Below, piece by piece: positions 1 to 36,312 of a stretch of 64,000 nt of DNA. The notes below the pieces were generated by a model, which had not been told where the DNA came from, searched no databases, and worked only from the letters and a program-made list of their open reading frames with translations. The first letter of the stretch is position 1. Each line of letters begins with the position of its first letter. Source of the stretch: Strigamia acuminata (Eukaryota > Arthropoda > Chilopoda > Geophilomorpha > Linotaeniidae); contig OX442318.1 in NCBI GenBank assembly GCA_949358305.1, forward strand, positions 1 through 64,000. The letters run 5' to 3'. The position numbers were made by a program, and so were the translations under genes.

Positions 1-80
1 AATCTCGGTCTTGTTAAACCGAGATTTCTTCACAGGATTGTAAACGATATTGCAAAAAGAAAAAGTACACTTTACGTCAC

Positions 81-95
81 GAGTCGTAACGACTC
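81..95. promoter_or_regulatory. Palindrome near hairpin, iteron-like
   Basis: GAGTCGTAACGACTC is a perfect palindrome about a central A, ~55 bp after the hairpin, followed by related motifs (AACGTCGTTGTAACG). Short repeated or palindromic motifs beside a stem-loop are typical of Rep binding sites; that role is inferred. Same at 18313-18327 and 35780-35794. Confidence 0.35.
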
Positions 96-189
96 ATAAC
101 GTCGTTGTAACGTTTTCTATTGTATTTCGTTTCACACGTGACAGCTACAAATGTGACAATTCGTCAACAAAACGTTTCTTTTTTTTTAC

Positions 190-196
190 TATATAA
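190..196 (+). promoter_or_regulatory. TATA-like box in unit leader
   Basis: TATATAA, ~55 bp downstream of a TCACACGTGAC E-box-like motif, with no long reading frame for 3.4 kb downstream on this strand. It could start a plus-strand transcript that splices into Rep. Repeated at 18422-18428 and 35889-35895. Confidence 0.3.
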
Positions 197-720
197 CGAG
201 AAAAAACAGTTTCTCTCAGAAACAGCGTTGTTTAAAAATTTACAAATAACAAATTAACCCAAATAAAATTTATTCTTCCTAAAAATTGGTCTTTTTATGC
301 CAAAAACATCTGAAATTACTAAAATCTTGAAAAAATCATCAAAAATGACAATGGCGTAAAAAATACATCTAAGATAACTAAAATCGTGCAGAAAGAAACA
401 CTGAAAATGACATATTCGTGCATAAGAACGACTAAAATGATTAAATCGTGGCCAAAAAACATCAAAAATGACATTTTTGTCTAGAAAAAACATCGGAAAT
501 GACTAAAATTGCGCAAAAGTATGTTTTTGGATCGAATCTAAATTTTGGACTCAGTCACGTACAAGATTGATCTCCAAAAAAAACAGAAAAAAAAAAAAAA
601 AACCTAACCTAACCGAAGTTAAAGTTAGGCCTAACAAAGCCGTTATTCCCGAGTGTAATGGTGCAGTTACTCTTAAGTATAAGATAAATCTCTATTTCTC
701 CAGAATAAAAAAAAAGTCCT
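197..720. other. AT-rich leader, no gene
   Basis: Degenerate short repeats of the type ACTAAAAT..GTG..AAAAATGAC at 300-520, then a poly(A) tract (584-602) followed by CCTAACCTAACC (603-614) and a TTAGG (~625). A 79-aa minus-strand frame across the degenerate repeats is low-complexity and I do not regard it as a gene. Copies at 18429-18952 and 35896-36312. Confidence 0.6.
603..614. other. Internal telomere-like tract, candidate att site
   Basis: CCTAACCTAACC directly after a poly(A) run. The same tract at 18835-18846 lies inside copy 2. In partial copy 3 it is the exact point where element sequence gives way to an extended CCTAA array, as expected for the crossover site of a site-specific recombinase. 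Inference from the junction only. Confidence 0.5.
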
Positions 721-725
721 AAGAA

Positions 726-890
726 TGAAGAAATATGTTTTTCCAGAAAAAGAAATGTTACTTAAGAATAAGAAATATGTTACTTAAGAATAAGAAATAT
801 GTTTCTTAAGAATAAGAAATATGTTACTTAAGAATAAGAAATATGTTACTTAAGAATAAGAAATATGTTTCTTAAGAATAACAAACTTAG
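726..890. repeat. Short tandem repeat, ~22 bp
   Basis: About seven copies of TTACTTAAGAATAAGAAATA and variants, in direct orientation. No coding potential. Copy at 18958-19122. Confidence 0.85.
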
Positions 891-967
891 TTCTTAATAA
901 TAAAAAATAATTTTCTCCAGAATTTTATAATTTATTGCTGAAGAATGAGGAACATGTTTCTCCAACC

Positions 968-1675
968 CAAGCAACCATACTCACCATGATGACGTCACAC
1001 GTGCAGTACACAACCGTACACGGCAGTTTGGGCAAGCTCAAATGCCTAGGAAAAATAAAAAAATCAAAACTCGCATTAAAAATCGGCAAAAATCATGAAA
1101 AATTATCAACAAAAAAACCCCCAAGCAACCATACTCACCATGATGACGTCACACGTGCAGTACACGGCCGTACACGGCCGTTTGGGCAAGCTCAAATGCC
1201 TAGGAAAAATAAAAAAATCAAAACTCGCATTAAAAATCGGCAAAAATCATGAAAAATTATCAACAAAAAAACCCCCAAGCAACCATACTCACCATGATGA
1301 CGTCACACGTGCAGTACACGGCCGTACACGGCCGTTTGGGCAAGCTCAAATGCCTAGGAAAAATAAAAAAATCAAAACTCGCATTAAAAATCGGCAAAAA
1401 TCATGAAAAATTATCAACAAAAAAATCCCCAAGCAACCATACTCACCATGATGACGTCACACGTGCAGTACACGGCCGTACACGGCCGTTTGGGCAAGCT
1501 CAAATGCCTAGGAAAAATAAAAAAATCAAAACTCGCATTAAAAATCGGCAAAAATCATGAAAAATTATCAACAAAAAAATCCCCAAGCAACCATACTCAC
1601 CATGATGACGTCACACGTGCAGTACACGGCCGTACGGCCGTTTGGGCAAGCTCAAATGCCTAGGAAAAATAAGAA
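968..1675 (-). repeat. 154-bp array of mini-exon cassettes (five units)
   Basis: Five near-identical 154-bp monomers. On the minus strand each has a T-rich acceptor ending TTTTTCCTAG, a 61-nt GC-richer core beginning GCATTTGAGC and ending CATCATG, then a strong donor GTGAGT, followed by ~93 nt of AT-rich sequence. The core also contains a perfect CRE palindrome TGACGTCA abutting a CACGTG E-box. Plus-strand frames of ~100 aa through the array are created by the repeat period and are not considered genes. The core stops in frame, so the cassettes are probably non-coding if spliced. Confidence 0.7.
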
Positions 1676-1937
1676 AAATAAATAAATTCTAACCAAACAC
1701 TCCTTTGCTAAATTCTGCCAACAGAGTTCACTGCCACTCCAGATTCAAGTTCAAACTTGAACCCAAGTATATATCCTAAACTTCTAAACATCTAATCTCC
1801 TACTAAAACTAAAGTAACACAAGACCAAGAACAACAGGTAAACAAACCCAAATGCTTTTATCACACAATGGAAACAAAAATGCCCGTTTTTCATCCAAAA
1901 AACTGTTAAAAACATCCAAAAATTGAATACCGAAACT
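1676..1937. other. Spacer, nothing recognised
   Basis: AT-rich single-copy DNA between two cassette arrays. No frame, motif or repeat of note apart from a small inverted GTTCAAACTTGAAC at ~1750. Confidence 0.5.
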
Positions 1938-3545
1938 AAAAAAATAGTTAAAAATCAATTTAGAAAAATGGTTGGTCACCTTTTCCAATGTCCAGCAGAC
2001 CCCATGTGTGGTCGGGGCTCGTCCAGAGACCTTTGGGAGGTTTTAAAAGGCTAAAAAACAAAAAGAAACAGTTAAAAACAATTAAAAAAGTAAAAAAAAA
2101 ATCCAAAAATAGTTAAAAATCAATTTAAAAAAATGGTTGGTCACCTTTTTCCATGTCCAGCAGACCCCATGTGTGGTCGGGGCTCGTCCAGAGACCTTTG
2201 GGAGGTTTTAAAAGGCTAAAAAACAAAAGGAAACAGTTAAAAACAATTAAAAAAGTAAAAAAAAATCCAAAAATAGTTAAAAATCAATTTAAAAAAATGG
2301 TTGGTCACCTTTTTCCATGTCCAGCAGACCCCATGTGTGGTCGGGGCTCGTCCAGAGACCTTTGGGAGGTTTTAAAAGGCTAAAAAACAAAAGGAAACAG
2401 TTAAAAACAATTAAAAAAGTAAAAAAAAATCCAAAAATAGTTAAAAATCAATTTAAAAAAATGGTTGGTCACCTTTTTCCATGTCCAGCAGACCCCATGT
2501 GTGGTCGGGGCTCGTCCAGAGACCTTTGGGAGGTTTTAAAAGGCTAAAAAACAAAAAGAAACAGTTAAAAACAATTAAAAAAGTAAAAAAAAATCCAAAA
2601 ATAGTTAAAAATCAATTTAAAAAAATGGTTGGTCACCTTTTTCCATGTCCAGCAGACCCCATGTGTGGTCGGGGCTCGTCCAGAGACCTTTGGGAGGTTT
2701 TAAAAGGCTAAAAAACAAAAAGAAACAGTTAAAAACAATTAAAAAAGTCCAAAAAAATCCAAAAATAGTTAAAAATCAATTTAAAAAAATGGTTGGTCAC
2801 CTTTTCCATGTCCAGCAGACCCCATGTGTGGTCGGAGCTCGTCCAGAGACCTTTGGGAGGTTTTAAAAGGCTAAAAAACAAAAGGAAACAGTTAAAAACA
2901 ATTAAAAAAGTAAAAAAAAAATCCAAAAATAGTTAAAAATCAATTTAAAAAAATGGTTGGTCACCTTTTTCCATGTCCAGCAGACCCCATGTGTGGTCGG
3001 GGCTCGTCCAGAGACCTTTGGGAGGTTTTAAAAGGCTAAAAAACAAAAAGAAACAGTTAAAAACAATTAAAAAAGTAAAAAAAAATCCAAAAATAGTTAA
3101 AAATCAATTTAAAAAAATGGTTGGTCACCTTTTTCCATGTCCAGCAGACCCCATGTGTGGTCGGGGCTCGTCCAGAGACCTTTGGGAGGTTTTAAAAGGC
3201 TAAAAAACAAAAAGAAACAGTTAAAAACAATTAAAAAAGTCAAAAAAAATCCAAAAATAGTTAAAAATCAATTTAAAAAAATGGTTGGTCACCTTTTCCA
3301 TGTCCAGCAGACCCCATGTGTGGTCGGGGCTCGTCCAGAGACCTTTGGGAGGTTTTAAAAGGCTAAAAAACAAAAGGAAACAGTTAAAAACAATTAAAAA
3401 AGTAAAAAAAAAATCCAAAAATAGTTAAAAATCAATTTAAAAAAATGGTTGGTCACCTTTTTCCATGTCCAGCAGACCCCATGTGTGGTCGGGGCTCGTC
3501 CAGAGACCTTTGGGAGGTTTTAAAAGGCTAAAAAACAAAAAGAAA
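1938..3545 (-). repeat. 164-bp array of mini-exon cassettes (ten units)
   Basis: Ten monomers, counted by the motif GGTTGGTCACC at 1970, 2135, 2299, 2463, 2627, 2791, 2955, 3119, 3283 and 3447. On the minus strand each reads: acceptor GTTTTTTAG, a 71-nt core (70 nt in units with one T fewer) ending GACATGGAAAAAG, donor GTGACC, then AT-rich intron-like DNA. Sequence between cores varies in A-run length while splice-site bases stay constant. Overlapping plus-strand frames of 73-76 aa are by-products of the repeat. Confidence 0.7.
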
Positions 3546-3667
3546 TGGTTAAAAACAATGAAGAATTGAAAAAATAGCAGCTTTTTAGCCATTTCTCAAC
3601 GTGAAAATGACCCATTGTTGTTTTATTTACCTCACATTAAAATGAATCGTTTCGTTTAGCTGAAAAA

Positions 3668-4927
3668 ATGCCAAGACAACCAGGCCGCCGTCCAGGCAGG
3701 CCAAGCAACCGCAATCGCCCATATCCAGTACCAATCGCACCGCGGATGGAAGCTATTGTTCCACAGCAGCTTGCGTTCATTCGGCCAGTCGCACCACCTG
3801 CACCTCAATTGATGGCTCCTCCTGCTCTTCCAGTCTTACTGCAACAACATATAATCGCTGCCGAGCCCGCGGACGAAACAGAGCCAGACCCGGAAGAGAA
3901 CACGTTGTTCTTAATTACCTTGCCTCGCTGTGATAAAACACGCGAAGAGGTGTACAACTTCTTTGTGCCATTGTGCAAGGAACTCGTTGTTGCCCGCGAA
4001 CGCCACCATGACTTAAATGAAAATGAGCAACGATTCCCTTTCCATTTGCACATATTCTGCAAGCTCCGTGTGCCGTCTAACTTCCTGGTATTGCGGCATC
4101 ACATTCGCGACCACATCTTTCAAGCTGTTCGGGAACCTTCCATCCACGTGCAAAAAATCAGGTCACAAAATAAGAATGGGACAATTGAATATACCACGAA
4201 GGAGGATCTCGATGCCCTTCTTTTGAATGTGCCATTGTCCAAAACCAGCGAGTTTATGCAGACTGTGCGGTGGGCAGAACGAACCTACCATCAAGAGGTG
4301 GACACCTCGGTGGACCCCTTCGCCTTTAAATTCAGGTCACAGTACCAACACCTCTGCCTCATCCACGACTGGGTGGAAAAACGGATAGATGCCGTGGCTG
4401 CAACAAGCAGGCAACAGGCCCGACGGGCCCACATCGTAAGCAGGTACACCGTAATTCCAGGCACATGGGTTGCGCGCTTGTTGGATTTTTACGCCAGCAT
4501 CGATCCGACGCATCCCGACCCGCGGAGAAAGAATGTGTACTTGCATGGTGCAGCTGGCACAGGAAAGACTCGCCTCACCGAGGCATTCTGCAGTCACGTG
4601 ATCTCTGCCTTCATGCCTTCTATGAGTGAAGGTCAATTCGCGTTCAGCGGTTTGGGCAATCACTGTCGAGCTGTTTACATCCCGGATTGCCCCGCACACA
4701 GAATTGACAGCGATCCCATCGAAGGCATGATGCTCCGCCTTTTAGAAGGGGCTGAATTCTCTGCCGCGACAAAAAACTCAAACCCCAAACTCATCACGGT
4801 TTCCATGCCTGTCATTGTCTGTTCAAATTACGAGCCGCCAAATAAGCCCCAATTCCAGAGACGATTTACCATCATAGAGGTAACAGGATTCTGGAAGGAG
4901 TCGGTGACCCGCCTAGATGCACCATAA
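3668..4927 (+). CDS. rep: CRESS-type Rep: HUH endonuclease and SF3 helicase
   Basis: Predicted 419-aa replication initiator acting on element DNA in the nucleus. Residues 1-78 are a basic, Pro-rich leader. The HUH nickase domain shows motif I FLITLPRC (81-88), motif II HLHIF with His126 and His128 for metal binding, and motif III EYTTK with the presumed nucleophile Tyr175 and Lys178. The helicase domain shows Walker A GAAGTGKT (294-301), a Walker-B-like RAVYIPD (334-340), motif C VIVCSN with Asn387, and an arginine-finger-like QRRF. These are the hallmarks of Rep from circular ssDNA viruses and their endogenous relatives. The Walker B Asp-Asp pair is reduced to Pro-Asp, which may affect ATPase activity. 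The frame is intact, GC-richer than its surroundings, and followed by AATAAA at 5000. The ATG at 3668 is the first in the frame; TTTCGTTTAG just upstream could be a splice acceptor. It is flanked on both sides by minus-strand cassette arrays, so it would lie in an intron of any transcript through them. Confidence 0.85.
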   Translation: MPRQPGRRPGRPSNRNRPYPVPIAPRMEAIVPQQLAFIRPVAPPAPQLMAPPALPVLLQQHIIAAEPADETEPDPEENTLFLITLPRCDKTREEVYNFFVPLCKELVVARERHHDLNENEQRFPFHLHIFCKLRVPSNFLVLRHHIRDHIFQAVREPSIHVQKIRSQNKNGTIEYTTKEDLDALLLNVPLSKTSEFMQTVRWAERTYHQEVDTSVDPFAFKFRSQYQHLCLIHDWVEKRIDAVAATSRQQARRAHIVSRYTVIPGTWVARLLDFYASIDPTHPDPRRKNVYLHGAAGTGKTRLTEAFCSHVISAFMPSMSEGQFAFSGLGNHCRAVYIPDCPAHRIDSDPIEGMMLRLLEGAEFSAATKNSNPKLITVSMPVIVCSNYEPPNKPQFQRRFTIIEVTGFWKESVTRLDAP

Positions 4928-4999
4928 ATGTATAAAAAAAACCCGAATTATTAAAAACTGTTATATAAAAATTGAAATAATATTTTTAATTCCTTCTTT

Positions 5000-5005
5000 A
5001 ATAAA
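5000..5005 (+). terminator. Polyadenylation signal for Rep
   Basis: AATAAA, 73 bp after the Rep stop codon. Same at 23232-23237. Confidence 0.5.
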
Positions 5006-5309
5006 AATACAAAGTTGACATACTTCACCGACAGTTGGAGCGCAGCCAAGTAAATTTGGGGGACTATTTCAGCTGCAGAACCTGTAAAAAAAAAGAAAAG
5101 AAAACACAAAGAATCAAATTCATGACAGAAATGGCAAAAAACAATCAAAACAGGAAAATACTTATCTGAAATCTTTCTGTATCGACCTAACACTCCTCAG
5201 GAACGTGTGAGCAGCCGGAAAGACCCAGAAATAAAAATAAAAATAAAAATAAAAATAAAAATTGTTTAAAAAATTCAAAAAAAAAGATAAAAATGCATTT
5301 CAAAAAACG
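5006..5309. other. Degenerate cassette module and AAAAAT repeat
   Basis: Contains a decayed minus-strand cassette (5195-5225) ending in the sequence GATTTCAGATAAGT, also found at ~8750, and a short (AAAAT)n run at 5228-5262. No gene. Confidence 0.45.
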
Positions 5310-7240
5310 GTTATTTACCTTTTCTGACGTCCAGCGTGGCCAAGGTGAGTTGGGGGCCCATCCAGTGGCCATTAGCAGGTCCTGAACACCTAGGAAATAA
5401 AGAAAAACGATCAAAAACGATCAAAATTTGAAGGAAAAGCATAAAAGATGCATAAAAATTAATTTCAAAAAATTGTTTCTCACCTCCTATGATGGCCAGG
5501 GTGGTCTGGGTGAGTCCGGGACCCATCCAGTGGCCTCCAGCAGGTCCTAAACACCTAGAAAATAAAGAAAAAAGATGAAAAGTGATAACAATTTGAAGGA
5601 AAAGCTTAAAAATTAATAAAAACAAATTTACAAAAATGCCTTCTTACCTTTTATGAAGTCCAGCATAGACAAGGTGAGTCCGGGGCCCATCCAGTGGTCC
5701 TTGGCAGGTCTTGAATATCTAGAAAGGAAAAAAAAAAAAACGAAAAACCATTAAAATTTGAAAGAAAAGCTGGAAAAATGCATAAAAACGAATTTCAAAA
5801 AATTCCTTCTTACCTTTTCTGATGTCCAGGGTGGTCTAATTGAGTCCGGGACCCATCCAGTGGTCCTTGGCTGGTCTTGAATACCTAGAAAGAAAAGAAA
5901 AACGTTGAAAAACCATTAAAATTTGAAAGAAAAACTGGGAAAATGCATAAAAACGAATTTCAAAAAATTCCTTCTTACCTTTTCTGATGTCCAGGGTGGT
6001 CTAATTGAGTCCGGGACCCATCCAGTGGTCCTTGGCTGGTCTTGAATACCTAGAAAGAAAAGAAAAACGTTGAAAAACCATTAAAATTTGAAAGAAAAAC
6101 TGGGAAAATGCATAAAAACGAATTTCAAAAAATTCCTTCTTACCTTTTCTGATGTCCAGGGTGGTCTAATTGAGTCCGGGACCCATCCAGTGGTCCTTGG
6201 CTGGTCTTGAATACCTAGAAAGAAAAGAAAAACGTTGAAAAACCATTAAAATTTGAAAGAAAAACTGGGAAAATGCATAAAAACGAATTTCAAAAAATTC
6301 CTTCTTACCTTTTCTGATGTCCAGGGTGGTCTAATTGAGTCCGGGACCCATCCAGTGGTCCTTGGCTGGTCTTGAATACCTAGAAAGAAAAGAAAAACGT
6401 TGAAAAACCATTAAAATTTGAAAGAAAAACTGGAAAAATGCATAAAAACGAATTTCAAAAAATTCCTTCTTACCTTTTCTGATGTCCAGGGTGGTCTAAT
6501 TGAGTCCGGGACCCATCCAGTGGTCCTTGGCTGGTCTTGAATACCTAGAAAGAAAAGAAAAACGTTGAAAAACCATTAAAATTTGAAAGAAAAACTGGGA
6601 AAAATACATAAAAACGAATTTCAAAAAATTCCTTCTTACCTTTTCTGATGTCCAGGGTGGTCTAATTGAGTCCGGGACCCATCCAGTGGTCCTTGGCTGG
6701 TCTTGAATACCTAGAAAGAAAAGAAAAACGTTGAAAAACCATTAAAATTTGAAAGAAAAACTGGAAAAATGCATAAAAACGAATTTCAAAAAATTCCTTC
6801 TTACCTTTTCTGATGTCCAGGGTGGTCTAATTGAGTCCGGGACCCATCCAGTGGTCCTTGGCTGGTCTTGAATACCTAGAAAGAAAAGAAAAACGTTGAA
6901 AAACCATTAAAATTTGAAAGAAAAACTGGGAAAAATGCATAAAAACGAATTTCAAAAAATTCCTTCTTACCTTTTCTGATGTCCAGGGTGGTCTAATTGA
7001 GTCCGGGACCCATCCAGTGGTCCTTGGCTGGTCTTGAATACCTAGAAAGAAAAGAAAAACGTTGAAAAACCATTAAAATTTGAAAGAAAAACTGGGAAAA
7101 ATACATAAAAACGAATTTCAAAAAATTCCTTCTTACCTTTTCTGATGTCCAGGGTGGTCTAATTGAGTCCGGGACCCATCCAGTGGTCCTTGGCTGGTCT
7201 TGAATACCTAGAAAGAAAAGAAAAACGTTGAAAAATGATT
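5310..7240 (-). repeat. 165-bp array of mini-exon cassettes (twelve units)
   Basis: Twelve monomers; the last eight are almost identical, the first four diverged. On the minus strand each has acceptor CTTTCTAG, a 71-nt core starting GTATTCAAGACC and ending CATCAGAAAAG, and donor GTAAGAAGG (GTGAGA or GTAAAT in diverged units). The diverged first two units keep the 71-nt core length and both splice dinucleotides despite many substitutions. Two of three frames are open within one core, but 71 is not a multiple of three, and joined cores hit TAG within three units. Confidence 0.75.
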
Positions 7241-7332
7241 AGAAATGGGTAAAAATTGATGAAAATTGACAAACCGAAACTATAAACGACAGGATAACAA
7301 TAAATGGCGGAGGCGTCCCGCTATGCGGTGGC

Positions 7333-7635
7333 AATCTTGGGTACTAGGGAAAGGGATGGAAGAGGCCAGATGCCCAGCTTTTTCCACCAACCACAGTCTG
7401 CCACAAGCCAAAACCTGCACCCTTTGCTGGTGAATCTTGGGTACTAGGGAAAGGGATGGAAGAGGCCAGATGCCCAGCTTTTTCCACCAACCACAGTCTG
7501 CCACAAGCCAAAACCTGCACCCTTTGCTGGTGAATCTTGGGTACTAGGGAAAGGGATGGAAGAGGCCAGATGCCCAGCTTTTTCCACCAACCACAGTCTG
7601 CCACAAGCCAAAACCTGCACCCTTTGCTGGTGAAT
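7333..7635. repeat. 100-bp tandem repeat (three units)
   Basis: Three monomers starting AATCTTGGGTACTAGGG at 7333, 7433 and 7533. No splice-site arrangement like the neighbouring arrays; minus-strand frames through it follow the repeat and show no known domain. Copy at 25565-25867. Confidence 0.85.
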
Positions 7636-7676
7636 CTAAAGATTTCTTGCTGAAGCAAATGATTATTTCAATGCTT

Positions 7677-7755
7677 ATTGGCTAATTGGTGGAACCTCAT
7701 TCATTCAATTGGTTAATTATTTTTCCCGCCAATTAGTTTTTTCTTCATTGATTGG
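7677..7755. promoter_or_regulatory. CCAAT/E2F-type promoter-like cluster
   Basis: ATTGG (inverted CCAAT) at 7677, 7685, 7708 and 7751, CCAAT at 7729, and an E2F-like TTTCCCGCC at 7722-7730, all within 80 bp. It lies immediately upstream (in minus-strand sense) of the 100-bp and 165-bp arrays, so it could drive the minus-strand transcript in S phase. Inference from motif density only. Copy at 25909-25987. Confidence 0.35.
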
Positions 7756-7851
7756 TTCTTAAAATATAGTTTCTCCTTTCTCACACCAGGTGGCAAATAG
7801 AGGGCGTTGCTACAGTCAAAGAAGCGGCAAATTTGAATGCTAACCTCAGCT

Positions 7852-8072
7852 TAGCTAACCTAACCTAAATAAAATATGCTAACCTAACCTAAATAAAATA
7901 TGCTAACCTAATCTAAATAAAATATGCTAACCTAACCTAAATAAAATATGCTAACCTAACCTAAATAAAATATGCTAACCTAACCTAAATAAAATATGCT
8001 AACCTAACCTAAATAAAATATGCTAACCTAACCTAAATAAAATATGCTAACTTACCCTAAATAAAATATCCT
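7852..8072. repeat. 24-bp repeat containing telomere motif (nine units)
   Basis: Nine copies of AACCTAACCTAAATAAAATA-type monomers (24 bp). Each carries two CCTAA telomere motifs followed by an A/T filler, so the array presents telomere-like sequence inside the element. Copy at 26084-26304. Confidence 0.85.
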
Positions 8073-8084
8073 AAAATATGCTGT

Positions 8085-8345
8085 AGATGGACATGGTAAG
8101 AGGTGACCAACCATTTGTTTGAATTGATTTTTACCTATTTTTTGAGTTTTTTTTTCCATTTTGGATTGTTTTAACCATTTCTTTTTGTTCTTTAGCCTTT
8201 TACAACCTCCCAAAAGTTTCTGGATGGGTCCCGGCCACACATGGACCCCGGGCTGGACATGATAAAAGATGAATAACCATTTGTTTGAATAGATTTGTAC
8301 CTATTTCTTTAGTTTTTTTTCCCATTTTTGATTGTTTTGGCTAAG
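8085..8345 (+). repeat. Two inverted copies of the 164-bp cassette
   Basis: Diverged copies of the 164-bp cassette in opposite orientation: plus-strand TTCTTTAG acceptor, core CCTTTTACAACCTCCC through GGACATG, donor region lost in the complete unit (GATAAAAGATGAAT). The preceding partial unit keeps GGACATGGTAAGAG. Copy at 26317-26577. Confidence 0.55.
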
Positions 8346-8579
8346 AGAAACTCAATGTCCATCTGCCTGGAAGCCAAAACAGCGGGTATCTCGGGGAAAA
8401 CAAGGAGTTTTACTCTTCACTAATGTAGAAAAATAAATCCAACAGGAGCAAAAAGAAAAACAACATCTTTAATGTAACGGTAAACATGCGTAACAACCAA
8501 TAATATCAAAATAGATAAAGAATAAATTGAAACGAATAAAAACATGAAAACAAATCTAAAAATAACATCCAAAACAAAT
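8346..8579. other. Spacer, nothing recognised
   Basis: AT-rich DNA without frame or repeat of note. Copy at 26578-26811. Confidence 0.4.
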
Positions 8580-8990
8580 TTTAAAAATTGCTGTTCATCT
8601 TCTGTTATGTCCTATGTGGTCCAGGTGAAGTTGGTGGGCGTCCAAAGGCCTTTGAGGTCCAGAACATACAAAAATGTAGAAAAAAAAATCACAAAGAATC
8701 GATTTCTTTGTTGAAATGCCCAAAAATCAACCAAAACAAGTAAAAACTTATCTGAAATCCATTTGATATTGACCCATCACTACTCAGGGCCGTTTGGGCA
8801 GTCGCAAATGCCTAGAAAATAGAACAAAAATGATTAAAAACATGAAAAATTGAAGAAAAGAAACGTCAAAAATAAATTTCAGAAAAAGCGGTTTACCGCC
8901 TGTGATGTTCCCCGCCGATCAGGCGCAGTCGTGGATAACCACACACCTTAGACCAATCAAAAATCCCTAGAAAATAAAACAAAAATAATA
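8580..8990 (-). repeat. Three single, diverged mini-exon cassettes
   Basis: Single cassettes: (i) ~8595-8660, core recognisable but acceptor lost; (ii) ~8735-8812, acceptor TTTTCTAG and the GATTTCAGATAAGT end; (iii) 8898-8967, acceptor ATTTTCTAG, ~70-nt core, donor GTAAAC. They look like older relatives of the arrays on both sides. Copy at 26812-27222. Confidence 0.5.
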
Positions 8991-9039
8991 AACACTTTAA
9001 AATGCATCAAAATGCATTAAAGAAAATGCTAAATTCAGG

Positions 9040-12000
9040 AAACTTAACCCCACGTGCAGTCCACGGCCGTTTGACAAGCTGGAATGCCTAGGAACAAAAA
9101 AAAATAAAAATCACGTCCAAAAACGGCCAAAATCATGAAAAATTATCGACCATAAATCCCCAAGCAACCAACACTCACCATGATGATGTCTCACGTGCTG
9201 TCCACGGCCGTACACGGCCGTTTGGACAGGCTGGAATGCCTAGGAACAAAAAAAAATAAAAATCATGTCAAAAAACGGCCAAAATCATGAAAAATCATCG
9301 ACCATAAATCCCCAAGCAACCAACACTCACCATGATGATGTCTCACGTGCTGTCCACTGCCGTACACAGCCGTTTGGACAGGCTGGAATGCCTAGGAACA
9401 AAAAAAAATAAAAATCACGTCCCAAAACGGCCAAAATCATGAAAAATCATCGACCATAAATCCCCAAGCAACCAACACTCACCATGATGATGTCTCACGT
9501 GCTGTCCACTGCCGTACACGGCCGTTTGGACAAGCTGGAATGCCTGAGAACAAAAAAAAAAAATTAAATCACGTCAAAAAACGGCCAAAATCATGAAAAA
9601 TCATCGACCATAAATCCCCAAGCAACCAACACTCACCATGATGATGTCTCACGTGCTGTCCACTGCCGTACACAGCCGTTTGGACAGGCTGGAATGCCTA
9701 GGAACAAAAAAAAATAAAAATCATGTCAAAAAACGGCCAAAATCATGAAAAATCATCGACCATAAATCCCCAAGCAACCAACACTCACCATGATGATGTC
9801 TCACGTGCTGTCCACTGCCGTACACAGCCGTTTGGACAGGCTGGAATGCCTAGGAACAAAAAAAAATAAAAATCACGTCCCAAAACGGCCAAAATCATGA
9901 AAAATCATCGACCATAAATCCCCAAGCAACCAACACTCACCATGATGATGTCTCACGTGCTGTCCACTGCCGTACACGGCCGTTTGGACAAGCTGGAATG
10001 CCTGAGAACAAAAAAAAAAAATTAAATCACGTCAAAAAACGGCCAAAATCATGAAAAATCATCGACCATAAATCCCCAAGCAACCAACACTCACCATGAT
10101 GATGTCTCACGTGCTGTCCACTGCCGTACACAGCCGTTTGGACAGGCTGGAATGCCTAGGAACAAAAAAAAATAAAAATCATGTCAAAAAACGGCCAAAA
10201 TCATGAAAAATCATCGACCATAAATCCCCAAGCAACCAACACTCACCATGATGATGTCTCACGTGCTGTCCACTGCCGTACACAGCCGTTTGGACAGGCT
10301 GGAATGCCTAGGAACAAAAAAAAATAAAAATCACGTCCCAAAACGGCCAAAATCATGAAAAATCATCGACCATAAATCCCCAAGCAACCAACACTCACCA
10401 TGATGATGTCTCACGTGCTGTCCACTGCCGTACACGGCCGTTTGGACAAGCTGGAATGCCTGAGAACAAAAAAAAAAAATTAAATCACGTCAAAAAACCG
10501 GCCAAAATCATGAAAAATCATCGACCATAAATCCCCAAGCAACCAACACTCACCATGATGATGTCTCACGTGCTGTCCACTGCCGTACACAGCCGTTTGG
10601 ACAGGCTGGAATGCCTAGAAACAAAAAAAAATAAAAATCACGTCCAAAAACGGCCAAAATCATGAAAAATCATCGACCATAAATCCCCAAGCAACCAACA
10701 CTCACCATGATGATGTCTCACGTGCTGTCCACTGCCGTACACGGCCGTTTGGACAAGCTGGAATGCCTGAGAACAAAAAAAAAAAATTAAATCACGTCAA
10801 AAAACGGCCAAAATCATGAAAAATCATCGACCATAAATCCCCAAGCAACCAACACTCACCATGATGATGTCTCACGTGCTGTCCACTGCCGTACACAGCC
10901 GTTTGGACAGGCTGGAATGCCTAGGAACAAAAAAAAATAAAAATCATGTCAAAAAACGGCCAAAATCATGAAAAATCATCGACCATAAATCCCCAAGCAA
11001 CCAACACTCACCATGATGATGTCTCACGTGCTGTCCACTGCCGTACACAGCCGTTTGGACAGGCTGGAATGCCTAGGAACAAAAAAAAATAAAAATCACG
11101 TCCCAAAACGGCCAAAATCATGAAAAATCATCGACCATAAATCCCCAAGCAACCAACACTCACCATGATGATGTCTCACGTGCTGTCCACTGCCGTACAC
11201 GGCCGTTTGGACAAGCTGGAATGCCTGAGAACAAAAAAAAAAAATTAAATCACGTCAAAAAACGGCCAAAATCATGAAAAATCATCGACCATAAATCCCC
11301 AAGCAACCAACACTCACCATGATGATGTCTCACGTGCTGTCCACTGCCGTACACAGCCGTTTGGACAGGCTGGAATGCCTAGAAACAAAAAAAAATAAAA
11401 ATCACGTCCAAAAACGGCCAAAATCATGAAAAATCATCGACCATAAATCCCCAAGCAACCAACACTCACCATGATGATGTCTCACGTGCTGTCCACTGCC
11501 GTACACGGCCGTTTGGACAAGCTGGAATGCCTGAGAACAAAAAAAAAAAATTAAATCACGTCAAAAAACGGCCAAAATCATGAAAAATCATCGACCATAA
11601 ATCCCCAAGCAACCAACACTCACCATGATGATGTCTCACGTGCTGTCCACTGCCGTACACAGCCGTTTGGACAGGCTGGAATGCCTAGGAACAAAAAAAA
11701 ATAAAAATCATGTCAAAAAACGGCCAAAATCATGAAAAATCATTGACCATAAATCCCCAAGCAACCAACACTCACCATGATGATGTCTCACGTGCTGTCC
11801 ACTGCCGTACACGGCCGTTTGGACAAGCTGGAATGCCTGAGAACAAAAAAAAAATTAAATCACGTCAAAAAACGGCCAAAATCATGAAAAATCATCGACC
11901 ATAAATCCCCAAGCAACCAACACTCACCATGATGATGTCTCACGTGCTGTCCACTGCCGTACACGGCCGTTTGGACAAGCTGGAATGCCTAGGAACAAAA

Positions 12001-27222: not shown

Positions 27223-27271
27223 AACACTTTAAAATGCATCAAAATGCATTAAAGAAAATGCTAAATTCAGG

Positions 27272-29617
27272 AAACTTAACCCCACGTGCAGTCCACGGCC
27301 GTTTGACAAGCTGGAATGCCTAGGAACAAAAAAAAATAAAAATCACGTCCAAAAACGGCCAAAATCATGAAAAATTATCGACCATAAATCCCCAAGCAAC
27401 CAACACTCACCATGATGATGTCTCACGTGCTGTCCACGGCCGTACACGGCCGTTTGGACAGGCTGGAATGCCTAGGAACAAAAAAAAATAAAAATCATGT
27501 CAAAAAACGGCCAAAATCATGAAAAATCATCGACCATAAATCCCCAAGCAACCAACACTCACCATGATGATGTCTCACGTGCTGTCCACTGCCGTACACA
27601 GCCGTTTGGACAGGCTGGAATGCCTAGGAACAAAAAAAAATAAAAATCACGTCCCAAAACGGCCAAAATCATGAAAAATCATCGACCATAAATCCCCAAG
27701 CAACCAACACTCACCATGATGATGTCTCACGTGCTGTCCACTGCCGTACACGGCCGTTTGGACAAGCTGGAATGCCTGAGAACAAAAAAAAAAAATTAAA
27801 TCACGTCAAAAAACGGCCAAAATCATGAAAAATCATCGACCATAAATCCCCAAGCAACCAACACTCACCATGATGATGTCTCACGTGCTGTCCACTGCCG
27901 TACACAGCCGTTTGGACAGGCTGGAATGCCTAGGAACAAAAAAAAATAAAAATCATGTCAAAAAACGGCCAAAATCATGAAAAATCATCGACCATAAATC
28001 CCCAAGCAACCAACACTCACCATGATGATGTCTCACGTGCTGTCCACTGCCGTACACAGCCGTTTGGACAGGCTGGAATGCCTAGGAACAAAAAAAAATA
28101 AAAATCACGTCCCAAAACGGCCAAAATCATGAAAAATCATCGACCATAAATCCCCAAGCAACCAACACTCACCATGATGATGTCTCACGTGCTGTCCACT
28201 GCCGTACACGGCCGTTTGGACAAGCTGGAATGCCTGAGAACAAAAAAAAAAAATTAAATCACGTCAAAAAACGGCCAAAATCATGAAAAATCATCGACCA
28301 TAAATCCCCAAGCAACCAACACTCACCATGATGATGTCTCACGTGCTGTCCACTGCCGTACACAGCCGTTTGGACAGGCTGGAATGCCTAGGAACAAAAA
28401 AAAATAAAAATCATGTCAAAAAACGGCCAAAATCATGAAAAATCATCGACCATAAATCCCCAAGCAACCAACACTCACCATGATGATGTCTCACGTGCTG
28501 TCCACTGCCGTACACAGCCGTTTGGACAGGCTGGAATGCCTAGGAACAAAAAAAAATAAAAATCACGTCCCAAAACGGCCAAAATCATGAAAAATCATCG
28601 ACCATAAATCCCCAAGCAACCAACACTCACCATGATGATGTCTCACGTGCTGTCCACTGCCGTACACGGCCGTTTGGACAAGCTGGAATGCCTGAGAACA
28701 AAAAAAAAAAATTAAATCACGTCAAAAAACGGCCAAAATCATGAAAAATCATCGACCATAAATCCCCAAGCAACCAACACTCACCATGATGATGTCTCAC
28801 GTGCTGTCCACTGCCGTACACAGCCGTTTGGACAGGCTGGAATGCCTAGAAACAAAAAAAAATAAAAATCACGTCCAAAAACGGCCAAAATCATGAAAAA
28901 TCATCGACCATAAATCCCCAAGCAACCAACACTCACCATGATGATGTCTCACGTGCTGTCCACTGCCGTACACGGCCGTTTGGACAAGCTGGAATGCCTG
29001 AGAACAAAAAAAAAAAATTAAATCACGTCAAAAAACGGCCAAAATCATGAAAAATCATCGACCATAAATCCCCAAGCAACCAACACTCACCATGATGATG
29101 TCTCACGTGCTGTCCACTGCCGTACACAGCCGTTTGGACAGGCTGGAATGCCTAGGAACAAAAAAAAATAAAAATCATGTCAAAAAACGGCCAAAATCAT
29201 GAAAAATCATTGACCATAAATCCCCAAGCAACCAACACTCACCATGATGATGTCTCACGTGCTGTCCACTGCCGTACACGGCCGTTTGGACAAGCTGGAA
29301 TGCCTGAGAACAAAAAAAAAATTAAATCACGTCAAAAAACGGCCAAAATCATGAAAAATCATCGACCATAAATCCCCAAGCAACCAACACTCACCATGAT
29401 GATGTCTCACGTGCTGTCCACTGCCGTACACGGCCGTTTGGACAAGCTGGAATGCCTAGGAACAAAAAAAAATAAAAATCACGTAAAAAAACGGCCAAAA
29501 TCATGAAAAATTATCGACAAAAAAATCCCCAAGCGACCATCACTCACCATGATGATGTCACACGTGCTGCCCACGGCCGTACACGGCCGTTTGGACAAGC
29601 TGGAATGCCTAGGAAGT
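27272..29617 (-). repeat. 153-bp cassette satellite, copy 2, 16 units
   Basis: Same monomer order as copy 1 except that the A-B-C-D-C block of five units occurs once instead of twice, a difference of 765 bp. Confidence 0.8.
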
Positions 29618-32297
29618 TAGGTTTACAGATTAAGCCTTCGTTCTGACATATAATACACTGTATTATTTCAAATTGTTATGCTCTCGTGTCACGTATCTTT
29701 CTATTGTGACTAGAGATTTTCCTTACCTGCAAATAAAACACCAGCTGTTTAGTTACATTACTCTTCCTCTTCTCTTTCTACAATTGACACTAAATATGCA
29801 GCGAAAAACGAATCCAAAAGATTCTAAGCCATACGACAATACCAATCACTCGTTGGTTCAAATCGTCCGCCATTTTCCTCCGCAAAAGCTACCGAGTCGT
29901 CACGTGACCAAAAACGAAATGGAAAATCAGTTTAGATGAGTTGTCTGACAATTAATTAATTAATTATTTCAATTTATTTACACCAAACAGTTTCTTATTA
30001 AAACGTTCATTTCCCCGATCCGAAATAATTTTCCTTGGTATCAGAGTAGACAGTTGTATCGGCAATGGACCCAATCGAACTCCCTGATTGGTCCATTCGA
30101 ATTTGGCAACAAAGGCTTATTTTTTCCACGCCCTCTTTCCCACCTTATTTTTAGTTTGTCATTCCGTTTTTTCGTGAAAAAATGTGTATTTATTCGCCCG
30201 TTTACCATTAATCCTCATAATTTGAAACAAATCGGCGTTGGGTTGTTTAAGTTAGTGCATTTCGCCCGCACCGTACACGTGATCAAAACCTCCTCCCCTT
30301 CCCTCTTGTGATTGGTTGATTCGAAGTAGAGAGCAGACGATAGTTTGGATTTTCATAGTGTTATGATTTTCTTTGCTATTAAAATACTTTGTTATTATAT
30401 ATTTTTATAACAAATGGCTTTCATGCTCCAAAACTGCATTTTTGGGACTCCAAAATGCATTTATTTCTGAAAACAAATGGCTTTCATGCATCAAAACAGC
30501 ATTTTCAGGGTAGAAAAATGCATTTGTTTATGTAAAGAAACATCTTAGGGACATAAAAGCTTCAATTTCTACTTCCAATATAATTTTGCTCTGGATTCAA
30601 AAGAAAGCAAGAACAGCAATTCACATAGTCCTGTGAGTTTCATGGTACAAAAACATACCACAGGAAAGCCCGAGGGCGGAGAAGGCAAGTGGGTTTTTCA
30701 AGCAAAGGGAAAAGGTTTTTAGTCTTAAACTGATGAAGTGGCAGCAAAAATGAGCAGTAAGTGTTGTAATTTCATAAATTAACCCTCAGAAGGATAACCC
30801 TATACCATTTTTGGGACAACACTCTTCTTGAATAGGAAAACGTTTTTTGGTTTAATATAATTAGCAGAAATTTTCTGGCTTTTTTCACAACAATAATGTT
30901 TGTTTCCAAAAAAAATTGAAGTGTTCTGAACATTATTTGTTTATTTATTCACCTTGGAAAATTCGGCCCCTTAGAAATTCCAGCTTAAATCTAAGTTGGC
31001 TTCTCTCAATCTTATAATAGCGCTTCTTCTTAGTGCTTCCAATTGGTATCAGCAGACACTGTATGGCGCTAGTAGTGCAACACAAAAAATTACAAGGTTC
31101 TATTTCTGGCTAAAATATACATTAAAAATAAAATTATTTAGAATAACTTAAACTTTTTCACCTAATATTAATTTTCTTGGTTAAAAATTAATTTTCTTGG
31201 CTTAAAATTAATTTTCTTGACTTAAAATTAATTTTCTTGGCTTAAAATTAATTTTCTTGGCTTAAAATTAATTTTCTTGGCTTAAAATTAATTTTCTTGG
31301 CTTAAAATTAATTTTCTTGGCTTAAAATTAATTTTCTTTGCTTAAAATTAATTTTCTTGGCTTAAAATTAATTTTCTTGGCTTAAAATTAATTTTCTTGG
31401 CTTAAAATTAATTTTCTTGGCTTAAAATTAATTTTCTTGGCTTAAAATTAATTTTCTTGGCTTAAAATTAATTTTCTTGGCTTAAAATTAATTTTCTTGG
31501 CTTAAAATTAATTTTCTTGGCTTAAAATTAATTTTCTTGGCTTAAAATTAACGCCCATTCATGCAATGAAAAGTGGTCAAAAAGGGCCAAACGGTCATTT
31601 TAAGCCAAAAACATAACAATATAAATTAAAAAAAGAGGAAATAAGCGCAAATAGAAGGCGCCTGGATCTCCAAAATGCACGTCAAAATTAAAAACCAATT
31701 AAATAAATTAAACAAATAGGATCAGCTAATAAACTAAAAACCTACAAAATCCAGCATCCACCTGAAATTGAAAAAACACCTAAAATTCCGTTAAAATTCT
31801 CTAAAAATTAGAATAAAATTCTATTTTAATTTCTCTGCAATCTCCCTAAAATTTCCCCAAAATTCTCCTAAAATGACAAATTTTACTTTTAAAAATTAAA
31901 CAAACAGAATCAGCTAATAAACGAACAAAAAACTTGCAAAGCCCATCCACCCGAAATTGAAAATACATCTAAACTTCCCCTAAAATTGCAAAAAAGTTGC
32001 CCAAAAAAAATTCTTTTTTAATTTCCCTGTAATCTCCCTAAATGAAGCCAAAGAGTCAGGAAAAACGTGCGTTTTGGTCGCCAAAAACGTGCAGTTAAGC
32101 AAAAAAAAAATGTATTGCCACCCAAAATGTGCGTTTTGGCCACAAAAAGTGCACCTTACACACCAAAAAGTGCTCTTCGGACACGAAAAGAACACTTGGC
32201 CAACCAAAATGCACAATTTTGCTGCCAAAAAGTGCACTTTGGACAGGGAAAATGCACTTTTTACACGTATGTGACTAATTTGTACATTTATGCGTAG
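29618..32297. other. Single-copy and short-repeat region, copy 2
   Basis: Corresponds to 12151-14830: promoter-like motifs, ~70-bp duplication (30415-30532), 20-bp satellite (31168-31551) and degenerate 21-bp repeat (32062-32272). No gene supported. Confidence 0.6.
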
Positions 32298-35200
32298 GTC
32301 CAATCACTACGGCCATTACGGCCACCCAGGATGAGGTCGGGGAAGACACCATCGAGAACGTCAATGGGCAGGTGTCTGTAGTTTGGGATGATACCAATTG
32401 GGTGCCAGAATGCATGAGGGAATTTTTGGTACCGTCCTTGAACGAAGCCAGGCTGTGCAAATTTGAAGAATGGGCAGGCTACGACGCAGGACTTGGTCAC
32501 TCGCAACACACGGCTGAGCAGCACAGGCGGCAAACAAAAGATTTCCTTGTGAAAACATGGGAGAGCAAGGAAGAAACGTTCCTCCAAGGAACGGAAACCT
32601 GGTTCTTGGCGATGTTAAAAGGATTTGCCCCGGGAACAATCGTGAGCTCGTTAAGTTCGATAAAGCACTATCTCTTTTACGTTGAACGCTCGCTAAAGAA
32701 CCCCCCTGGCCCAGCCCGAGACCTCCTTAGGTCGATGACGGGTCAGTTGAAAATGTGGGGAGGCAATGTAAAAAAGCTTTGCGCACGCCGCCAAAGAGTG
32801 CTAGCTCGTAACGAACGAACAAAACTGCCGTGCAAGAAAGACGGCAAGTCGTTCATTTCCTCGCTGCACGTCCGCGAAGTCCACGCCTGGCTGGATCAGC
32901 CAAGCTCAATTAAAAACTGGAGCATTAAGGTCGTTCCACATGCCAGAGACGTTCTGGTCACCGAATTGGTTATGGCAAATGCGGCTCGCCAGGGTTGTGC
33001 CACTCAAATGACCCTCGGCGAGTGGCAAAACCGGGTGGTAGTCAGGGATTGCTTGGTGGTTGACGTGGCGAAAGTAAAAAACGCAGCGCAAAGGGGCGGC
33101 GCAGACGTGGTGGTGTCCAAAAGGCTAGAAAGCCGGATCCGAAGCTACATCAGGCACTTTCGGAGCCGTTGCTTTTTTGGCGAAAACAGTGAGGAACGGC
33201 GACGAGACACGTCAACACCTCTGTTTGTCAACTCGGTGGGCAAACAGATGGATAAGTCGATGGCGGCCAACTGCGTTACAAATGCCTGGAAACGCGCCGG
33301 CCTCAAGCCAATGACGGCCACCCTTTATCGAAAGGGCGTCGTTACGGAGGTCCACCATCGGAACTATGAAATGGCAGCCGATCTGGCCAATCAAATGGGC
33401 CACAATGTGGCAACGGCAGACAAATATTACAGGTTGGCAGGATCTGCACGCCGATCGGTCAAAACTGTGCGGAGAATTGGAAAACTCATGGGGACCGGTG
33501 CACTACTGGATAGCAGCGACGAAGGTAATACACTTAATGCCCAAAATTTTTTTCGCCCCTAAAGCTCATTATCCACTTACCATCAAAACAAGACGAACAA
33601 GAGAAAGCAGGGCGCGAGTCCGACACATCTGACGCGTCGTCCGAACGCAACGCGTCACATTCGCTACCGCCTTCTCGCAGACGAGTACCAGCGTCCACGT
33701 CGCGAACCGTCAAACGCACTCGTCAGGCGGGGCCATCTACCTCAGCGCGCCAAAGTGCAGCGTCCGGTATGCATAAAAAAAAATAATAACAATAAAGCAG
33801 TAATGATTAATCAAATTGCACTAAACAGTGGAAGGTGATCGACACCAGTCCGCCACTTCCGACGCATCGCCCGAACGCAGCGCATCCCATTCGCAACCGC
33901 CCTCTCGCAGACAAGTACCAGCGTCCACGTCGCGAACCGTCAAACGCACTCGTCAGGCGGGGCCATCTACCTCAGCGCGCCAAAGTGCAGCGTCCGGTAT
34001 GCATAAAAAAAAATAATAACAATAAAGCAGTAATGATTAATCAAATTGCACTAAACAGTGGAAGGTGATCGACACCAGTCCACCACTTCCGACGCATCGC
34101 CCGAACGCAGCGCATCCCATTCGCAACCGCCCTCTCGCAGACGAGTACCAGCGTCCACGTCGCGAACCGTCAAACGCACTCGTCAGGCGGGGCCATCTAC
34201 CTCAGCGCGCCAAAGTGCAGCGTCCGGTATGCATAAAAAAAATAATAACAATAAAGCAGTAATGATTAATCAAATTGCACTAAACAGTGGAAGGTGATCG
34301 ACACCAGTCCACCACTTCCGACGCATCGCCCGAACGCAGCGCATCCCATTCGCAACCGCTCTCTCGCAGACGAGTACCAGCGTCCACGTCGCAAACCGTC
34401 AAACGCACTCGTCAGGCGGGGCCATCTACCTCAGCGCGCCAAAGTGCAGCGTCCGGTATGCATAAAAAAAAATAATAACAATAAAGCAGTAATGATTAAT
34501 CAAATTGTACAAAACAGTGGAAGGTGATCGGCACCAGTCCACCACTTCCGACGCATCGCCCGAACGCAGCGCATCCCATTCGCAACCGCCCTCTCGCAGG
34601 CGAGCATCACCGTCGGCGTCGCTCGGTGCCGCACCACTCAGTTCCCCCAGGTTGTCCAGATGGTCGTACTGTCCGGAGGGTTTAATGTCATTGTCACAAA
34701 TGCAGGAGGCGGTGGAGGCATCCATTGGCTCCCGTTCGCAATTGCCAACCCGGCGACAATCGCTGCCATCTGTGTCGCTTGGCGCCGCACCACTCAGTCC
34801 AAGCAGTACGGAAGCCTTTGGGTCATTGGCACAAACACGAGAGGCTCGTTCGTCCCTTGCTTCAGAGCCTGAAGGGACGAGTATGTATTCTGAAAGAGAT
34901 ATTCTAATAATTATTCATTGTTTAATTCTGACAATTAATGCAGACGTCCGGTCAGGCCAGGAGCGGTTCGAAACAGAGGTGTTCAACGAATCGCCGACCA
35001 GACACCAAAAAACAACAAATCGCAGACTCGGTGAACAACTCTTGGTGAAACCCGCTCACCTATTGCTCACAGCATCCATGTCCATTCCGGATACTAGGGA
35101 CCGGTCCATCATTCCCACATCTGGTGAGCAAACTGGTATGTCCTCAGACGGAATAAAAACACACACACACATTTATTAATTACTTTGTTGTCTGTTTCAA

Positions 35201-35602
35201 ACAGTGCCCATTCCGCTTCTGCCAACCGTTGCCATCCCAGCCCCTCCCCTTGGGATGAACTGGAATGGCGTGTTCGCAGCATCGCTTGGTGTCCGCCAAC
35301 AACCAGGATTGGTTTTGCGTGCTGCGGCACAAAGTAATCGTAGGGTGGTCAAGCCACCTGCGAATCCCCAACCCAAGATCGGTGCCCGTACGTCATTTAC
35401 ACCGCAGCATGCCAAACTAATCCAGGAGCACCTGCACCGATTTGTAGACAATAATGGAAAGTTTGTGTCCGATTTGATGCATCAAGCGCTGGAAGAAATT
35501 CCCGACCTAAAAGACATAAAGGATGGTTATAGGGCCAAGCAGATCCGAGATAAGGCGAGGGGCCTTCTAAAAAAAATGTGCATTTTATCGTGCAATGAAT
35601 AA
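32298..35602 (+). CDS. Multi-exon tyrosine recombinase, copy 2
   Basis: Proposed exons 32298-33524, 33593-33766, 33829-33996, 34059-34226, 34288-34455, 34518-34880, 34944-35135 and 35205-35602. All coding segments, splice sites and the number of duplicated linker exons equal those at 14831-18135. Confidence 0.8.
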
Positions 35603-35697
35603 GAAATGTTTTAAAACCAAATCATATTAGAAACCATTATTTTCACTATACTTTCAAGTCTCGCTCGTCTCGGCATCTCAGGCTTCCTTTCTTTTAG

Positions 35698-35727
35698 GAA
35701 ATCTCGGTCTTGTTAAACCGAGATTTC
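35698..35727. other. Hairpin at unit boundary, copy 3
   Basis: Identical to the hairpin at 18231-18260. The copy 1 hairpin is cut by the window start (positions 1-28 remain). Confidence 0.55.
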
Positions 35728-36312
35728 TTCACAGGATTGTAAACGATATTGCAAAAAGAAAAAGTACACTTTACGTCACGAGTCGTAACGACTCATAACG
35801 TCGTTGTAACGTTTTCTATTGTATTTCGTTTCACACGTGACAGCTACAAATGTGACAATTCGTCAACAAAACGTTTCTTTTTTTTTACTATATAACGAGA
35901 AAAAACAGTTTCTCTCAGAAACAGCGTTGTTTAAAAATTTACAAATAACAAATTAACCCAAATAAAATTTATTCTTCCTAAAAATTGGTCTTTTTATGCC
36001 AAAAACATCTGAAATTACTAAAATCTTGAAAAAATCATCAAAAATGACAATGGCGTAAAAAATACATCTAAGATAACTAAAATCGTGCAGAAAGAAACAC
36101 TGAAAATGACATATTCGTGCATAAGAACGACTAAAATGATTAAATCGTGGCCAAAAAACATCAAAAATGACATTTTTGTCTAGAAAAAACATCGGAAATG
36201 ACTAAAATTGCGCAAAAGTATGTTTTTGGATCGAATCTAAATTTTGGACTCAGTCACGTACAAGATTGATCTCCAAAAAAAACAGAAAAAAAAAAAAAAA
36301 ACCTAACCTAAC
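35700..36312. mobile_element. Partial third unit ending at telomere-type repeats
   Basis: The first ~600 bp of the unit are repeated once more, through the leader and poly(A) tract, up to the internal CCTAACCTAACC tract. There the unit sequence (which in copies 1 and 2 continues CGAAGTTAAAG) is replaced by further CCTAA repeats and unrelated DNA. This is the right-hand junction of the tandem array. Confidence 0.9.

Follow-up and report, generated by a model that had tools for sequence, protein, structure and literature searches.

Structure of the array

The window, the whole 64,000-nucleotide stretch analysed here, is the left end of contig C6, which matches chromosome 5 of the centipede Strigamia acuminata. 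Self-BLAST of the window showed that positions 1-11382 recur at 18233-29612 and positions 9812-18846 at 27282-36313. When we phased the units by the element's own ends, the following features of family A were recognised, including a Rep gene and a probable tyrosine recombinase (YR) gene.

1-614, +: 3' end of unit 0 (distal), equal to 18233-18846 and 35700-36313, clipped by the contig end
603-614, +: unit 0/1 junction, 12 bp of telomere repeat, CCTAACCTAACC
615-18846, +: unit 1, family A, 18,232 bp; the last 12 bp are the CCTAA junction
3641-4924, +: Rep (HUH endonuclease and SF3 helicase) of unit 1, open frame of 428 aa
7854-8074, +: 24-bp internal repeats containing CTAACCTAACCTAA, unit 1 (unit 2: 26086-26306)
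9050-12148, +: 152-bp satellite of unit 1, 20.3 copies
14812-16092, +: YR catalytic exon of unit 1, open frame of 427 aa
17713-18132, +: ORF3 of unit 1, the frame with the putative YR C-terminal exon
18231-18260, +: perfect 11-bp stem-loop 3' of the YR gene, candidate Rep origin
18835-18846, +: unit 1/2 junction, 12 bp, the same CCTAACCTAACC as at the unit 0/1 junction
18847-36313, +: unit 2, family A, 17,467 bp; the last 12 bp are CCTAA repeats
21873-23156, +: Rep of unit 2, identical to that of unit 1
27282-29615, +: 152-bp satellite of unit 2, 15.3 copies, 765 bp shorter
32279-33559, +: YR catalytic exon of unit 2, open frame of 427 aa
35180-35599, +: ORF3 of unit 2, same frame
36302-36341, +: (CCTAA)8 tract leading from unit 2 to element B

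Judged from its sequence, the head-to-tail array of large units is real, and its description as such in the earlier note is borne out by both the self-BLAST and the end-based phasing; the unit sizes of ~17.5-18.2 kb given there also hold, but its unit borders are circularly permuted relative to the true ends. Units 1 and 2 differ solely by one 765-bp deletion in the satellite, with 0 mismatches over 8,435 + 6,698 bp outside the 152-bp satellite and 0 within it.

The Rep and probable YR genes

The HUH motif, the motif-III tyrosine, the SF3 Walker A and the two-domain fold are all present in the Rep; motif III has one tyrosine, the helicase matches are of the SF3 type, and the best matches of the Rep model are replication proteins of parvoviruses, papillomaviruses and CRESS viruses. 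By motifs and fold the protein belongs to the HUH plus SF3 class, as had been claimed. One relative was found, P0001 (405 aa, 32% identity; sources jgi/lgn/ena), among the 7996 candidates with the most words in common, which were those scored. The 146-nt stretch at the family A stem-loop folds with z = -4.36, while a 4.2-kb piece of family C holds a single stem of at least 9 bp that is not downstream of the C-terminal exon. Because the strong fold in family A lacks a counterpart in the family C piece, we keep the role of the stem-loop as the Rep origin as a guess.

The YR call is weaker than the Rep call. The NCBIfam XerD model matches the YR of family A with E 8.5e-5 and that of B with E 3e-6, both under the curated cut-off, and R237, K267, R351, H375 and Y384 are conserved in all three of three families (residue roles assigned in this analysis), with the HxxR position reading TxxR. 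The YR of family C gave no hit, the hhalign comparison of the YR was not significant, no YR relative was found among solved structures, PHROGs gave no recombinase match, and queries with the YR of B or the three-row YR alignment retrieved no relatives. The gene product is a YR-like protein in which R, K, R, H and Y are conserved, and probably a YR. The C-terminal exon was inferred from the sequence and the diverged copy at 41-43 kb rather than from a transcript, so that of the spliced YR proposed earlier the tyrosine-recombinase residues and a putative second exon were recovered, and the gene is only probably spliced. The predicted product of ORF3 is a small helical domain; that it may bind DNA is a guess.

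Ends, junctions and telomeric setting

(CCTAA)kCC directly precedes the 5' end in 20 of the 20 ends found (at least 20 ends), and CCTAA follows the 3' end in 11/11 full-length ends, always in one polarity; the latter came from 16 matches, the other five being partial (69-77%) and left out. The ends examined therefore show insertion in telomere repeats with a fixed polarity. The element sits within these repeats, for the most part at the ends of chromosomes, several of which carry near-identical copies. Its 5' end is distal on C6L, C9L, C11L and C8R, as well as on unplaced contigs with telomere repeats at their start or end (C133, C136, C70, C87 and C148). The earlier note had overlooked the (CCTAA)n at the unit borders and the telomeric setting, along with the diverged sister families and the copies without Rep described below. 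A TERT domain match (E 2.4e-29) indicates that a telomerase gene is present.

Within runs of units the junction length is constant, with k of 2, 2 on C6 (12 bp twice), 5, 5, 5, 5 on C3 (27 bp four times) and 1, 1 on C118. This constancy suggests copying from a circle, and it is from this alone that we infer an episomal state; the proposal of a new class of episomal element accordingly gains the constant junctions, its episomal part staying conditional. In 10/11 copies the A-run at the 3' end is of the same length, and the predicted introns are retained in both units of the window and in the pieces read from C9 and C3; both observations argue against an RNA copy.

Sister families and related copies

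The remainder of the window is occupied largely by a sister family lying between two CCTAA tracts.

36342-58961, +: element B, sister family
41400-43037, +: element B YR
near 43085-43432, +: element B C-terminal exon
58962-59577, +: proximal flank of B, a (CCTAA)n tract that passes into a degenerate array of CCTAAG

No Rep was recognised in element B, and a copy on C11L has a YR and lacks a Rep. Rep and YR do not occur only separately, which the earlier note had named as a refuting outcome: on the right arm of C8 a diverged family has both genes and the same C-terminal exon, all on one strand; its Rep and YR, about 18 kb apart, would lie in one unit. Both genes retain open frames across families with 45-51% identity. 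The 5.05-kb and 3.0-kb pieces of family C that were read stop short of its borders and contain no CCTAA repeated twice or more in a row; on C8, the 3.0-kb piece matches 3,001 bp of the 5.05-kb piece at 100% identity, 30,836 bp away. No related locus was found in viral contigs or in prokaryote genome contigs, and with one relative of the Rep and none of the YR, the two genes together were seen in no species besides this one.

A proposed DNA element at chromosome ends and its alternatives

Given this structure and placement, we somewhat favour a mobile DNA element residing in telomeric (CCTAA)n, which would home by its YR and be amplified by its Rep. We give even chances to its being a new class, in which a DNA circle uses the telomere repeat as YR attachment site, its Rep acts by rolling circle, and chromosome ends are invaded and lengthened without reverse transcription. 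The YR would join the 3' end of the element to its 5' end via a CCTAACC core, giving a circle with k telomere repeats, and the Rep would nick this circle and produce, by rolling-circle copying, concatemers in which every junction has the same k. CCTAACC is found on both sides of the element, but it also equals the surrounding repeat. The YR, perhaps guided by the C-terminal domain, would then carry out recombination between the circle's CCTAACC and the telomere tract, fixing the orientation with the 5' end distal, and telomerase would maintain a long distal tract. Rep-less copies, and chimeric ones that lack both genes, may have been moved in trans.

Y'-like amplification is an example of host-driven subtelomeric spreading. 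A comparable process could operate here, with an eroded end invading a circle or another end via CCTAA and copying it, so that host recombination spreads a subtelomeric block in which Rep and YR are passengers or merely make the first circle; we regard this as possible, though rather unlikely. Copying of a single circle would yield constant junctions and near-identical units on many ends, the CCTAA polarity alone would suffice for the orientation, the short proximal tracts resemble eroded telomeres, and roll-and-spread has been described in Kluyveromyces lactis (PMC3486848). However, in all the 5' ends mentioned above the element begins precisely at its terminus, although the 5' end was the query and truncated copies would escape, and for nine of the ten full-length 3' ends that no contig end clips, the same contig holds a 5' end farther upstream (30.5 kb upstream on C133; the 3' end on C5 has none). 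That the Rep and YR frames stay open between such diverged families also speaks against mere passengers.

Copying through RNA, by an element of the HeT-A, SART/TRAS or Terminon type with its reverse transcriptase (RT) elsewhere or acting in trans, is improbable. Such an origin would account for the telomere site, the head-to-tail order and the A-rich 3' end toward the centromere, the same polarity as in HeT-A/TART/TAHRE arrays (PMC5537684). Terminons, the giant Athena retroelements of bdelloid rotifer telomeres, are likewise large, multi-gene, telomeric and head-to-tail, with telomere repeats at the 3' junction, and some code for Rep (PMC6431247). An RT and a 3' hammerhead ribozyme form their basis, and most of them are 5'-truncated (PMC6431247), whereas the centipede element has a YR-like gene and the scans made found neither RT nor ribozyme. 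No RT family, Athena-type or other, matched in 16 distinct window frames (Pfam), a limited scan that short exons could escape; a [YF]xDD scan of frames of at least 80 aa in unit 2 and B gave none in unit 2 and one in B, FQDD in a 96-aa, non-RT frame. For the hammerhead ribozyme, Rfam gave no match of any kind in the window at the gathering level, and only PsrR1 (E 0.76) around the unit junction at E<=1. The predicted introns in the genomic copies, the single A-run length (weak evidence, since the copies are young) and the 3' ends of B-type and D-type elements, where no A-run adjoins the repeats, all argue against it as well.

An endogenous DNA virus integrating at telomeres, as telomere-integrating herpesviruses do (PMC5537684), was also suggested in the earlier note and would suit the viral best matches of the Rep model, but it is very unlikely: nothing capsid-like was recognised in the frames tested, a search that an unfamiliar capsid type could escape, and it is transposons that more typically have non-autonomous forms and satellites. 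Least probable of all is a single unit duplicated by the assembler, for which the identity of units 1 and 2 outside the satellite would speak, since the 765-bp deletion separates them, the window has three 3' ends, the same 5' end occurs on at least 12 further contigs, six different sequences follow the 9 non-junction 3' tracts (4/9 run into the same B-type sequence), and the assembly has 98x HiFi and QV 59.6 (PMC10556566).

Relation to known elements

Integrative rolling-circle elements of the pSAM2 type from actinobacteria have a Rep and a YR integrase, and excise, roll and integrate. They are bacterial and integrate in tRNA genes; the likeness to the centipede element would lie in the pair of Rep and YR. 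Among eukaryotic mobile elements, Helitrons have an HUH rolling-circle protein, a two-tyrosine HUH domain fused to an SF1 helicase, whereas the centipede Rep has an SF3-like helicase and one motif-III tyrosine and thus falls outside the Helitrons. Cryptons, which are YR DNA transposons, likewise have a YR without RT, and a circular intermediate has been proposed for them, with the short terminal direct repeats of fungal and oomycete Cryptons as recombination substrate (PMC3212892). Animal Cryptons are said there to lack terminal repeats and the C-terminal domain, and the relevant part of that source mentions neither Rep nor telomere target (PMC3212892); no Crypton-named family matched in Pfam at E<=1. 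SART/TRAS non-LTR retrotransposons share the pentanucleotide telomere repeat, (TTAGG)n of TERT-bearing arthropods, and TRAS has a Myb domain (PMC7265360, PMC5537684). They use an APE endonuclease and RT, whereas the centipede element has Rep and YR; neither APE endonuclease nor RT was found in the window frames scanned, within the same limits as above. Searches of an open-licence library brought up no eukaryotic element described as carrying these genes together, in agreement with the earlier note.

The telomere-specific transposable elements HeT-A/TART/TAHRE, SART/TRAS, GilT/M/D and Terminons are retroelements (PMC6431247, PMC5537684). If our favoured reading of a YR-homed, Rep-amplified DNA element is true, selfish DNA would have a DNA-only route to colonise and extend chromosome ends, at a site otherwise better known for RNA-copied elements. 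It would also be a natural example of telomere targeting by site-specific recombination, and would link the bacterial integrate-and-roll life style and the Reps of ssDNA viruses to eukaryotic chromosome ends. Near identity among its copies suggests that the element is active now or was until recently, which makes direct testing feasible in an animal that can be collected.

Element copies and their telomeric setting

Family A, the large element in the window, carries a Rep gene (HUH endonuclease with SF3 helicase) and a tyrosine-recombinase-like gene (YR, the weaker call, with an inferred C-terminal exon). Its units were delimited by self-comparison and by the element's own ends.

Elements in the window (forward-strand positions)
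1–614: unit 0, the last 614 bp of family A
615–18846: unit 1 of family A
18847–36313: unit 2 of family A
36342–58961: sister element B

Apart from the 152-bp satellite, units 1 and 2 align over 15,133 bp with no mismatch; a single 765-bp deletion distinguishes their satellite arrays, which are otherwise free of mismatches. Three-kilobase pieces of other copies were compared with unit 2: those from C9 and C3 match it with 100.000% identity, and the one from C11 reaches 99.6% in its longest aligned piece. Because the copies are identical or nearly so across C6, C9, C3 and C11, either their spread was very recent or the chromosome ends have been homogenised.

The window is the first 64 kb of contig C6, which measures 16,154,901 bp in a genome of 237.5 Mb, assembled in 157 contigs, 11 of them large; COX1 lies on contig C157 with a frame open under the invertebrate mitochondrial code. 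The published assembly of Strigamia acuminata (qcStrAcum1.1, 158 scaffolds) has a 16.15 Mb sequence as chromosome 5, and the term "telomer" is absent from the main text of that paper (PMC10556566).

At the 5' end of the element (CCTAA)kCC is followed directly by GAAGTTAAAGTTAGGCCTAAC, where k is the number of repeats, and at the 3' end an A-run leads into CCTAACC. Across the whole genome, the 5'-end query gave at least 20 matches on 13 contigs, every one at 100%, and the 3'-end query at least 16, among them 11 full-length at 99–100%; the five partial 3' matches (69–77%) were left out of the counts. CCTAA borders the copies in the element's sense at 20 of 20 5' ends and 11 of 11 full-length 3' ends. 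Not all of these copies are independent, since a placed end and an unplaced contig may represent the two haplotypes of one locus. The C16 and C8 copies resemble each other at both borders. Seven of the 20 5' ends adjoin a long CCTAA tract.

Long CCTAA tracts at 5' ends
C136, C133, C87, C70, C11: at least 1.5 kb, pure
C9: about 1.5 kb, with interruptions
C148: 152 bp, reaching the contig edge

C133, C136, C70, C148 and C11 (left end) start in pure repeats, and C87 has such pure repeats at its end. The 11 large contigs have 22 ends, of which 21 were represented by 1.5-kb samples and the remaining one by the window; four of the 22 are pure telomere repeat (left ends of C1 and C11, right ends of C8 and C4). 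The sample of the C9 left end reads N (L052, G000:C9:1-1500, all 1500 bases).

Two exceptions were seen. Copies near the C3 right end, which lacks a telomere tract, are oriented oppositely, possibly through a flipped scaffold piece, and one C5 copy lies at 13.33 of 16.99 Mb. A TERT domain was found in the genome, and therefore the element need not replace telomerase in the manner known from Drosophila.

Junctions and mode of copying

All tracts between neighbouring units have the form (CCTAA)kCC, with k = 1, 2, 5 or 42.

Telomere tracts between neighbouring units
C6: 12 bp at both junctions
C3: 27 bp at four junctions
C118: 7 bp at two junctions
C87, C44, C3: 7 bp at single junctions
C16, C8: 212 bp

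The nine full-length 3' ends other than unit junctions have 7–15 repeats (38–78 bp), as against long distal tracts where these are seen. If each unit had inserted independently into a repeat tract, k should vary freely; its constancy within runs speaks for copying from a single template, the outcome expected of a rolling circle. In the proposed mechanism, the element would form a circle that is copied by rolling-circle replication, and YR would join the DNA at CCTAACC. Host recombination from circles (roll-and-spread) accounts for the arrays and the polarity equally well and may act alongside the enzymes, but the exact 5' end and the conserved open frames of Rep and YR favour the enzymes. Copying through RNA is unlikely, because no RT was recognised in a limited scan, the inferred introns are retained in the copies and, a weak point, the A-run has the same length in 10 of 11 copies.

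Related families and known systems

The gene set recurs in the diverged family C on C8. Its Rep frame is open (429 aa; in alignment 45% identical to that of family A), as is its YR frame (574 aa, 51% identical), which stands on the same strand together with the C-terminal exon. As read, the two are different loci, the nearest Rep lying about 18 kb upstream of that YR; we infer that they belong to one unit. Family C is repeated at 30.8 kb with 100% identity across 3,001 bp.

Element B (about 22.6 kb) is flanked by (CCTAA)8 and by a (CCTAA)n tract passing into a degenerate CCTAAG array; it has a YR (39% identical to that of A) and two exons for the C-terminal domain, the second of them (45398–45901) similar to the first, and no Rep was recognised in it. 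Forms without Rep were read as well. The copy at the C11 left end (about 11.0 kb) has YR and gave no Rep match. The chimeric D units on C3 (13.2 kb) join 0.75 kb of the 5' end of A to interior frames common to B, and end differently from A, in TTTTTGCA followed directly by CCTAA; 12.9 kb of one unit gave neither a Rep nor a YR match. They form a tandem array of ~13.2 kb units (G000:C3:37711389-37783798, L040–L044) in which each of four junctions measures exactly 27 bp; the array breaks the orientation rule, and the contig end near it has no telomere repeats. The interior of C1, the largest chromosome, holds 52 of the 65 Rep matches listed, mostly at 31–59 Mb; many are decayed fragments, and one (L008) is full-length-like with its catalytic residues lost.

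The nearest known systems are Terminons in telomeric setting, Cryptons in the proposed integration chemistry and, for Rep, ssDNA viruses and likewise Helitrons. In the portions of the literature compared, none of them is described as a telomeric element that pairs Rep with YR and lacks RT. Within the open-licence literature as accessible we found no described element of this kind, and one may have been described elsewhere.

Repeats and folds inside the element

A palindrome, GTTAGGCCTAAC, lies within the element 5' end (18835–18867 and 603–635), and the junction CCTAACCTAACC-GAA-GTTAAAGTTAGG is able to fold back on itself (z −1.35, not significant); judged from these, the element begins with telomere-like repeats in inverted order. 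Internal 24-bp repeats with telomere-like units (CTAACCTAACCTAA) are found at 7854–8074 and 26086–26306. The satellites at 966–1679 (154 bp) and 9050–12148 (152 bp) have a common stretch with ACACGGCCGTTTGG and could, as a guess, be binding repeats for Rep. A perfect 11-bp stem-loop (18231–18260; z −4.36 over 146 nt) follows the YR gene and precedes the 3' end, and the start of contig C6 falls inside the stem of the same stem-loop sequence.
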